Positions 50,578 to 53,817 of a DNA stretch of 54,342 nucleotides are shown one piece after another. The notes under the pieces are model-generated. The model was not told where the DNA came from and made no database searches. It was given only the letters and a program-made list of their open reading frames with translations. The translations under genes and the position numbers were made by a program. The DNA is from Methanomicrobiales archaeon (GTDB lineage Archaea > Halobacteriota > Methanomicrobia > Methanomicrobiales > Methanoculleaceae). The stretch covers positions 1 to 54,342 of the forward strand of contig JAAZGM010000017.1 in the NCBI GenBank assembly GCA_012511245.1, read 5' to 3'. Position 1 is the first letter of the stretch; each line of letters opens with the position of its first letter.

Positions 50578-51942
50578 TCAGTTCTTGAAACTGTGAATCG
50601 GTGCGGGGATCCGCCCGCCGCGGTTGATGAAGTCCGCGCAGCCGAACCTGTTCACCCTCTGGACCGGCGCATGCCCGAGCAACCCGCCGAACTCAACGGT
50701 ATCCCCGACATCCTTCCCGATCACCGGGATCAACCGGACGGCGGTCGTCTTCTGGTTGATCATCCCGATCGCGGCCTCGTCTGCGATGACGCCGGATATC
50801 GTCGAGGCCGGGGTGTCGCCCGGTATCGCGATCATATCCAGGCCGACCGAGCATACGCAGGTCATCGCCTCGAGCTTCTCGATCGTGAGGGCACCACGGT
50901 TCACCGCATCGATCATCCCCTGGTCCTCGCTGACCGGGATGAACGCGCCCGAGAGTCCGCCGACAAACGAGCTCGCCATGATCCCGCCCTTCTTCACCTG
51001 GTCGTTCAGGAGCGCGAGAGCGGCCGTCGTCCCCGGGGCGCCGACCGACTCGAGCCCCATCTCCTCGAGGATCCCGGCGACGCTGTCCCCGACGGAGGGT
51101 GTGGGGGCAAGAGAGAGATCCACGATCCCGAACGGAATCCCGAGCCGCTCAGAGGCCTCCTGGGCGACGAGCTGGCCTGCGCGGGTGACCTTGAAGGCCG
51201 TCCGCTTGACCGTCTCGCAGAGTACCTCGAAGTTCTCTCCCCGGACACCCTCGAGTGCATGCTTGATGACGCCCGGGCCGCTTACGCCCACGTTGACGAT
51301 CGCATCGGCCTCAGAGACGCCGTGGAACGCCCCGGCCATGAACGGGTTGTCGTCGGGGGCGTTGCAGAAGACGACCAGTTTCGCGCAGCCGATGGAGTTT
51401 CGCTCCTTCGTTGCTTCAGCCGTCTCCCGCACGATCTCTCCCATCAGTTTGACGGCGTCCATGTTGATCCCGGTCTTTGTGGAACCGACGTTCACCGAGC
51501 TGCAGACCCGCTCGGTCGCGGCGAGAGCGGCCGGGATCGATCGGATGAGCGCTTCCTCGTTCGGGGTCATCCCCTTTGAGACGATAGCCGAGTACCCGCC
51601 GAGGAAGTTGACCCCGGTATCCCGTGCCGCGCGGTCGAGCGTCTCTGCGATCGTCACGAAGTCCTCCGGCGACCGGCAGGCCCGCCCGCCGACGAGCGAG
51701 ACGGGGGTTACAGATATTCGTTTGTTGACGATCGGTATGCCGTACTCAAGTTCGATCTCTCTTCCCGTCGAGACGAGGTCTCGTGCGAGCCCTGTGATCT
51801 TGTCGTATATGTTCTGGTTCAGGGCATCGAGATCGGCGTCGCAGCAGTCGAGGAGGCTGATGCCGAGGGTTATCGTCCGGACGTCGAGCTTCTCCTGCTC
51901 GATCATCTTGTTGGTCTCGTTCACCTCGAGGATGTTGATCAT
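50578..51942 (-). CDS. PFL family protein (UPF0210/DUF711)
   Basis: [44 protein letters not shown]...[24 protein letters not shown]. Confidence 0.93.
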
Positions 51943-51951
51943 GCCACTACC

Positions 51952-52224
51952 TCAGATGCGGTGCATCTTCGTGAAGATGTCCTCGCGCTGGCACCGGATA
52001 CGGACGCCGATCGCGCCGCCGAGTTCGTCGAGTTCGGCCACCATCGCGGCATACGGCTTTGTCGAGGCGCCGGTGTCGACGATCATCATCATGTTGAAGT
52101 AGCCCTGCACGATCGTCTGCGAGATGTCTTCGACGTTGATCTGGTTGTTGGCAAGGTAGGTGCAGACCTTCGCGATGATCCCCACGGCATCCTTCCCGAC
52201 GACGGTAATGATAGTCTTACTCAT
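51952..52224 (-). CDS. ACT domain-containing protein (UPF0237)
   Basis: MSKTIITVVGKDAVGIIAKVCTYLANNQINVEDISQTIVQGYFNMMMIVD; directly upstream of the PFL family gene. Confidence 0.94.
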   Translation of the reverse strand: MSKTIITVVGKDAVGIIAKVCTYLANNQINVEDISQTIVQGYFNMMMIVDTGASTKPYAAMVAELDELGGAIGVRIRCQREDIFTKMHRI

Positions 52225-52385
52225 GCTCTCTCCTGATCGTTGTGTATACCGATGGGTCCCTCAAGGCATTAATCCGACGAGGTGGCGGTGTCGGGAGCGA
52301 GTACTGATCGATGCAAGAAGCAGTTTTTCTTCGTCAGGGCGCAGCTGTGGCATTAATCCTGTGCCAACAGGGGTTGATGGAGAGG

Positions 52386-52623
52386 CGATGCAGTCATGTG
52401 TTACGCCAACATCGGTTTCCTTATGCCCTGGTCACGATCTGTAAAGTCCATTTCGTTGACTTAGAGATGACAGTCAGGTGTAAGGTAACAGTAGTTACCA
52501 TAGGGGGTGCAGTCACACGCTACGTCAACAATGGTTACCTTACACTCCAGTCGCGACCTGTAAGATCCACTTAGTTGACTTAGAAGAGACGGTTCGATGT
52601 AAGGTAACAAAAGTTGACTTACA
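52386..52623. repeat. Imperfect tandem duplication, 119-bp period, with embedded inverted motifs
   Basis: Copy 1 about 52386-52504, copy 2 about 52505-52623. Matched landmarks: gcagtc 52390/52509, gtaa 52441/52560, gttgactta 52455/52574, gtaaggtaac 52480/52599. Confidence 0.85.
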
Positions 52624-52635
52624 GGGCCACTTATA

Positions 52636-53817
52636 TTGCCATACTGTGAATTATACTCTATGGAGAGGTACCCTGAGAACAGAGCAGGAGTTTTTGCCCC
52701 CCAGAAGGGCGGGTACGATGCGTTCATCCCGCACCCATTGCCTCCACTGGATCTTGTTCTCGATGAAGGACTTTTGTATCTGCTATCAAAAGCTGACGGT
52801 GCCCTTGCTCGCCTTGATGGAGTCACTCAGGTGCTCCCGAACCCGGATCTTTTCGTGGCGATGTACATCAAGAAAGAGGCTCTGTTAAGCTCGCAGATCG
52901 AAGGCACGCAGGCATCTTTACAGGGAGTACTTGAGTTTGAGGCGCACCTCCGACCCAGGGATGATATCAACGAGATACAGGAGGTAGTGAACTACATAAA
53001 GGCGCTCCATCATGGTATCGAGAAACTGGAGTTCGCACCGTTCTCTCTTGACCTGATGAATGAAATCCATCGTTTTCTCATTCAGGGGGCACGGGGTTCA
53101 CATAAGTTCCCGGGTCAACTGCGGCGTGTTCAGAACTGGATCGGTCTATCGGGAGGGACTATCCGGGATGCAGTATTTGTCCCGCCGCCGCCGGAACAGG
53201 TTCCGGGGCTCATGCAGGATCTGGAACAGTTTATCCAGAGCAATGACAGGACGCCGACACTGGTAAAGGCCGCTCTCATCCATGCCCAGCTGGAGACGAT
53301 CCATCCGTACCTGGATGGTAACGGAAGAATGGGGAGACTGATGATAACGTTTTACCTCTATTACAAGGATGTTCTGGCGAGGCCATTGCTCTACCTCAGT
53401 TACTATCTGAAGAAGAACCGGGAGAAGTACTATATGCTCCTCAACGGGATCCGATACCACGGGAACTGGGGGGCGTGGCTTGAATTCTTCCTTCAGGGCG
53501 TCATCGAGGTCTCCAATAACTCTCTTGAGACGGCGAAGAGAATAATCCAGCTCAAAGAGACACTGATCGAGAAACTGCTGGAGAACAACGTCGGCGGTGT
53601 TCACGCAGTAAAGCTGATCGATATGCTTTTTAACCGCCCTATCATCACAATCGCACAAATTACAGAGGAATTACAGGTCAGCCGCCAGACTGCAACCAAA
53701 CTGGTGGGGCGGTTTGAGGATATCGGTATCGTGGAAGAGATTACCGGGAAAGTGCGGTATAAGCAGTATATGTTTGTGGATTACGTCCGGATCATCGAGG
53801 AAGGCACACGGATGTAG
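52636..53817 (+). CDS. Fic family protein with C-terminal winged-helix DNA-binding region
   Basis: Fic motif HPYLDGNGRMGR, inhibitory-helix-like SSQIEGT in the N-terminal region, C-terminal ITEELQVSRQTATKLVGRFEDIGIVEEITGKVRYKQYMF. True start may be slightly downstream (MERYPENRAG). Confidence 0.93.
   Translation: MPYCELYSMERYPENRAGVFAPQKGGYDAFIPHPLPPLDLVLDEGLLYLLSKADGALARLDGVTQVLPNPDLFVAMYIKKEALLSSQIEGTQASLQGVLEFEAHLRPRDDINEIQEVVNYIKALHHGIEKLEFAPFSLDLMNEIHRFLIQGARGSHKFPGQLRRVQNWIGLSGGTIRDAVFVPPPPEQVPGLMQDLEQFIQSNDRTPTLVKAALIHAQLETIHPYLDGNGRMGRLMITFYLYYKDVLARPLLYLSYYLKKNREKYYMLLNGIRYHGNWGAWLEFFLQGVIEVSNNSLETAKRIIQLKETLIEKLLENNVGGVHAVKLIDMLFNRPIITIAQITEELQVSRQTATKLVGRFEDIGIVEEITGKVRYKQYMFVDYVRIIEEGTRM

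Follow-up and report, generated by a model that had tools for sequence, protein, structure and literature searches.

The 54,342-bp stretch of DNA analyzed here (the window) carries, immediately upstream of the promoter of a SoFic-type fic gene, a regularly phased array of six palindromic sites, and arrays with the same pitch precede most of the orthologous fic genes that were scanned. With a probability of roughly 0.7, this array is an autoregulatory operator to which Fic dimers bind cooperatively, most likely repressing their own promoter; in this reading, the binder, the cooperativity, and the sign of the regulation are what we infer.

The repeat unit is a 26-bp dyad, which consists of two 11-bp arms separated by 4 bp (N4) and occurs six times across positions 52400 to 52623. 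The dyads start at positions 52400, 52440, 52479, 52519, 52559, and 52598, i.e., in steps of 40, 39, 40, 40, and 39 bp, leaving gaps of 13 to 14 bp between the neighbors. The distal dyad 1 (GTTACGCCAAC-atcg-GTTTCCTTATG, 52400 to 52425) is the most degenerate one; it is followed by dyad 2 (TGTAAAGTCCA-tttc-GTTGACTTAGA, 52440 to 52465), dyad 3 (TGTAAGGTAAC-agta-GTTACCATAGG, 52479 to 52504), dyad 4 (GCTACGTCAAC-aatg-GTTACCTTACA, 52519 to 52544), dyad 5 (TGTAAGATCCA-ctta-GTTGACTTAGA, 52559 to 52584), and the promoter-proximal dyad 6 (TGTAAGGTAAC-aaaa-GTTGACTTACA, 52598 to 52623), which shows the best match. The original prediction had described this region as a 119-bp tandem duplication. Two diverged copies (52383 to 52501 and 52502 to 52620) are indeed present, with 72% identity in a gapless 119-nt alignment, but each of them comprises three dyad steps, so the duplication was dropped as the basic unit in favor of the smaller dyad and its 40-bp step. 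All the short motifs quoted in that prediction were found where it had placed them, including the inverted repeat CTTACA-ctcca-GTCGCGAC-c-TGTAAG; the latter, however, straddles two dyads and consists of the right arm of dyad 4 and the left arm of dyad 5 with the 14-bp spacer between them.

In a search of the window with a dyad weight matrix, the top six sites were the six dyads, with scores from 31.8 to 8.9; the next site scored 6.1, and the maximum in three shuffled windows was also 6.1. This matrix was trained partly on the six dyads themselves, so the independent evidence comes from a de novo chain scan that assumed no particular sequence, in which the array region scored 28 and no other 320-bp stretch of the window exceeded 10. 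The strict dyad pattern, allowing 0 to 3 mismatches, had zero matches beyond the array in the whole Methanoculleus-like genome G000 (365 contigs).

Dyad 6 ends 36 bp ahead of the ATG codon of fic (position 52660), in agreement with the original placement of the repeats next to this gene, and about 7 bp ahead of a TATA box (CTTATATTG, 52630 to 52638, plus strand) that is located ∼26 bp before the ATG and is conserved in the orthologs. The distances between the dyad end, the TATA box, and the ATG are constant in 15 of 15 aligned loci of the Fic1 clade, which come from Methanoculleus, Methanocalculus, and an f2 genus. Wherever the upstream region of a Fic1 ortholog was retrieved, an array was present, and its final dyad stops precisely 36 bp ahead of the ATG, with the conserved TATA box coming next. 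Given this proximity of the TATA box to the start codon, the fic mRNA is probably leaderless, and the array, being upstream of the core promoter, is probably outside that mRNA. The array region is intergenic, with a divergent ACT-domain/DUF711 gene pair (50578 to 52224, minus strand) on one side and fic (52660 to 53817, plus strand) on the other. The next gene, 45 bp after fic, encodes an Imm5-like protein of 159 residues (PF21805; 53863 to 54342, plus strand); in relatives that lack fic, this gene has its own pair of dyads. The same ACT-domain/DUF711 neighborhood is found in three other genomes (G002, G018, and G028), in which there is no Fic gene between the dyads and the Imm5-like gene.

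The fic product is predicted to be a class II AMP-transferase. It matches the PADLOC SoFic model with an E value of 9.4e-118 over residues 18 to 380 and contains the Fic motif in the form HPYLDGNGRMGR, with Tyr replacing the Phe of HPFx[D/E]GN[G/K]R (PF02661 score of 79.2 bits against a cutoff of 24), as well as the class II N-terminal inhibitory helix [S/T]xxxE[G/N], represented by SSQIEG at residues 77 to 82. The C-terminal winged-helix domain (residues 314 to 380; 53599 to 53799, plus strand), with the recognition helix at about residues 342 to 354, is recognized by the HTH_13 (33.1 bits; cutoff of 26.1) and SoFic-like_C (28.2 bits; cutoff of 27) models. The structure model has a pLDDT of 90.9, with a confident winged helix, and matches the SoFic structures 3zcn and 3eqx in the PDB. 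The NCBIfam SoFic equivalog model NF046030 gave 179.8 bits, under its cutoff of 550 bits, so this Fic is a relative within the SoFic family rather than a member of the same equivalog. Judging by these sequence matches, the protein is a member of the SoFic anti-phage family, with AMPylation and phage protection as its predicted functions.

When up to 3 mismatches were allowed, the dyad pattern matched 39 of the 232 genomes of the order; its reversed version, used as a control, matched none. The strongest sites, which are also the most common, are located before Fic1 (4 to 7 dyads, weaker in the f2 genome G040), before Fic2, a paralog with 62% identity (1 to 2 dyads), and before Imm5-like genes with no adjacent Fic (a pair of dyads). 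The few single weak matches (in a phage-like coding region of G017 and in G132) are likely due to chance. A de novo scan of the orthologs for chains of 11-4-11 sites with a shared arm at 39- to 41-bp intervals (with a threshold score of at least 12 and shuffled sequences reaching at most 10) revealed arrays ahead of 50 of 61 Fic orthologs, whose identity ranges from 54 to 100%. These arrays come from families f1 to f6 of Methanomicrobiales and from four more families of the phylum (f8, f28, f30, and f34), which we take to belong to Methanosarcinales. When the period was pooled over 18 representatives, there was a single peak at 39 to 40 bp, and no other period clearly exceeded the background. 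In several more distant loci, the last dyad extends to the start codon. Conservation upstream of orthologs was the check proposed along with the original prediction, and the array indeed precedes both close and distant Fic genes; this recurrence, the fixed distance to the TATA box and the ATG, and the strict 39- to 40-bp pitch all support the multisite operator that had been envisaged.

The chain scan detected no arrays in the distant Fic3 clade (36 to 39% identity), and bacterial plasmid-borne Fic relatives (L161 to L169) had no clear 40-bp arrays. Dyads 39 to 40 bp apart were seen at an archaeal Fic with 44% identity (L183) and at Fic genes from Bacteroidales (L041) and Alcanivoracaceae (L042). 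On a Citrobacter plasmid (L170), three dyads of the form TTATTAAAG-N4-CTTTAATAA are located in 31-bp steps upstream of the gene at position 569, which encodes a Fic protein and had no match in the E. coli collection; this is possibly a bacterial counterpart of the array that differs in pitch. Such bacterial arrays are represented by few cases and are only suggestive.

The arms of the dyads are clade specific: TCTAAGTCAAC in Methanoculleus Fic1, TCTAAGTTAAC in Fic2, TCTACGTCAAG/GATATGTCAAG in f4, TGTAATTCTGG in part of g34, and TCTAAGTAAAG and TTTAAGTTAAC in the other families. They also differ between paralogs encoded in the same genome. Thus, in G032 the arms are GTCAAC for Fic1 and GTTAAC for Fic2, with the Fic2-type arms also present at a second promoter beside Fic2, and in G188 one paralog (L160) has TTCTGG arms and the other (L149) has, by eye, GTAAAC-like arms that are not called by the scan. 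At four Fic2 loci (L105, L107, L108, and L109), a second Fic2-type dyad site or pair is found between Fic2 and a gene for a small membrane protein (MAGAKKY...), which may share the regulation of Fic2.

At one f6 locus (L143), both the GTCA arms and the Fic protein itself are of the f4/f5 type, so the operator type tracks the Fic gene and not the host. The binding protein would have to move together with its operator, and no gene other than fic is constantly linked to the arrays. The dyads are likely to be bound by the winged helix of Fic itself, as suggested by the clade-matched operators, the distinct arms of the paralogs, and the precedents of CccR and CbFic2 discussed below. Clade-matched operators support self-recognition but do not prove it, since mere linkage would also be enough for the operators to track the gene tree. 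Covariation with the recognition helix was considered as such a proof and rejected: RQ/KE in this helix coincides with GTCA in every one of the 61 rows, yet this involves just two changes in the tree. Operator distance correlates with the Fic phylogeny (r = 0.63), and in a Mantel test that controlled for the catalytic domain the recognition helix added nothing (partial r = -0.04), making its covariation inseparable from phylogeny.

Ten Methanoculleus genomes retain, ahead of an orphan Imm5-like gene, two dyads with nearly invariant arms. In the seven of these that encode neither Fic1 nor Fic2, the arm difference per site is 2.6% at site A and 5.2% at site B; the respective values for N4 are 63% and 46%, and those for the spacer, the upstream flank, and the downstream flank are 19%, 37%, and 15%. 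One genome with dyads before an orphan Imm5-like gene, G003 (four contigs, 99% complete), encodes zero PF02661 proteins, and no stand-alone Fic-type HTH repressor was found in the Fic-less genomes, G003 included. The constrained dyads in such genomes may be bound by another protein, or Fic may have been lost recently or be supplied by related strains. Arrays are absent from the Imm5-like genes of other genera, and dyads are absent from those of f4, so the dyads probably arrived together with Fic. Remnants of Fic are found next to the array in G029 (L113), where an N-terminal scrap accompanies an intact array, and in G053 (L098), where a C-terminal scrap lies beside a decaying one; these arrays are therefore relics. 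A C-terminal Fic scrap is also found near the Imm5-like gene in G022 (L115). In G050 (L095, positions 1501 to 1566), a genome with no close Fic ortholog, two dyads 40 bp apart precede a gene that presumably belongs to a DUF4331-like family. In the Fic1 and orphan Imm5-like loci (L004 to L039), the loop of a dyad often matches the precise reverse complement of the loop in an orthologous dyad (GCAA/TTGC, ATAG/CTAT, ACAA/TTGT, and ATAA/TTAT). Over all sites, 5 such pairs were seen, compared with about 0.5 expected, which looks like repeated inversion of the palindrome loop.

A separate host-encoded regulator, with the dyads as its binding sites and a small regulon under its control (fic, the Imm5-like gene, and the gene beside Fic2), could explain why dyads remain constrained ahead of Imm5-like genes even where Fic1 and Fic2 are missing (one such genome has no Fic at all); the Fic winged helix would then serve some other role. 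Such a regulator would also account for dyads ahead of non-Fic genes, namely, the one beside Fic2 and the one in G050. However, the variation of the operator type by Fic clade, and between paralogs of the same genome, would require several such factors; in addition, fic alone is constantly linked to the arrays and Imm5-like genes of other genera do without them, making this explanation unlikely. It is quite improbable that the DNA-binding role belongs to the Imm5-like protein, either alone or as a corepressor with Fic, in the manner of an antitoxin at its own operator. Its gene follows fic in the window and retains a dyad pair when alone, but G031 and G036 have Fic2 with dyads and no Imm5-like gene at all, the gene is located elsewhere in the genome in Methanocalculus and f4, with no dyads in the latter, and the protein has no recognizable DNA-binding domain.

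Regularly spaced palindromes with loops that appear to invert also resemble iterons, and the array might be a recombination, partition, or replication element that precedes fic by chance. This is very improbable given that the distance to the TATA box and the ATG is fixed in all close orthologs and that the array is found before Fic genes in differing neighborhoods and orders, with no accompanying recombinase or rep gene seen. The original prediction had named a transcribed structured RNA as the alternative to an operator, and each dyad could in principle fold into a hairpin with an 11-bp stem and a 4-nt loop. However, among 59 distinct sites, 8 compensated deviations were counted versus 201 one-sided ones, with a chance mean of 10.9 compensated. 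With arm-arm compensation at no more than the chance level, each arm behaves as a separate half-site for a protein; there was no Rfam match at E values of up to 1, and the array is upstream of the TATA box. Hairpins in an RNA are hardly credible, and the operator reading stands. The operator of NrpR is GGTAA-N6-TTACC, which dyad 3 fits, but only this species and G023 were seen to have GGTAA, other orthologs having GTCAAC, and this candidate was rejected.

In the preferred reading, autoregulation by Fic, the dimers would bind the 26-bp dyads via their C-terminal winged helices, each dimer either spanning both arms of one dyad or bridging the 13- to 14-bp gap between two dyads, and the combination of a fixed 39- to 40-bp pitch with several sites would allow the neighboring dimers to touch and hence to bind cooperatively. 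The row of sites ends against the BRE/TATA elements of the fic promoter, so that sufficient Fic would occupy the array and repress fic, along with the Imm5-like gene that would be read through from it. Repression is judged to be about twice as likely as activation because the dyads abut the TATA box here and reach the start codon in some other orthologs, and because of the CccR precedent. CccR of Yersinia pseudotuberculosis, which similarly combines a Fic domain with a C-terminal HTH, binds inverted repeats in its own promoter and exerts negative autoregulation via dimers (PMC9755527). The CccR operator is a single pair of 10-bp half-sites with a 26-bp spacer, unlike the 4 to 7 dyads of the 11-4-11 type at 39 to 40 bp seen here; the arms are also different, and the reported identity between CccR and SoFic is only 29% (PMC9755527). 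Autorepression by a Fic-HTH protein is thus already known, and the multidyad phased array before a SoFic-type gene would be a new variant of it.

CbFic2 of Coxiella burnetii (PDB 8cil) is likewise a class II Fic with a C-terminal HTH. According to the available portion of its description, DNA binding by the HTH leads to dimerization and a switch from AMPylation to deAMPylation; the assays described there used random DNA, with no mention of a specific site or a promoter array (PMC10628234). The EcSofic-AS1 anti-phage system, from the same protein family (PDB 3eqx and 3zcn), is described as consisting of a dimer-forming toxin and a small downstream antitoxin, AS1, of 47 residues. The likeness of AS1 to the 159-residue Imm5-like protein, whose gene occupies a comparable place, is positional alone. 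The accessible part of that 2025 paper describes no operator and calls the mechanism that regulates EcSofic toxicity unclear (PMC12249575). In the operators of AbiE and other toxin-antitoxin systems, as outlined in the parts of the reports at hand (PMC7319586, PMC3985639), winged-helix proteins bind repeated palindromes cooperatively for autoregulation. In those systems the binding protein is the antitoxin, whereas here the winged helix is part of the toxin-like enzyme, which would be the putative binder.

By analogy with CbFic2, the array might additionally work as an enzyme switch, with promoter-held Fic dimers being inactive or deAMPylating and a loss of occupancy, e.g., upon infection, releasing the active AMP-transferase and raising its expression. 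This extension is doubtful, but if it is true, SoFic defense proteins would generally be toxins that repress themselves and are kept in store on their own promoters; the operators would be specific to the clade and the pitch to the lineage (40 bp here and 31 bp on the Citrobacter plasmid). The array with its clade-changing arms offers a directly testable answer to the problem of SoFic silencing, namely, autorepression through the winged helix of the toxin itself. More tractable hosts could be used for this purpose, since archaeal orthologs from several other families have similar arrays. The array may also serve as a sequence signature for locating the regulatory DNA of other Fic-HTH proteins.
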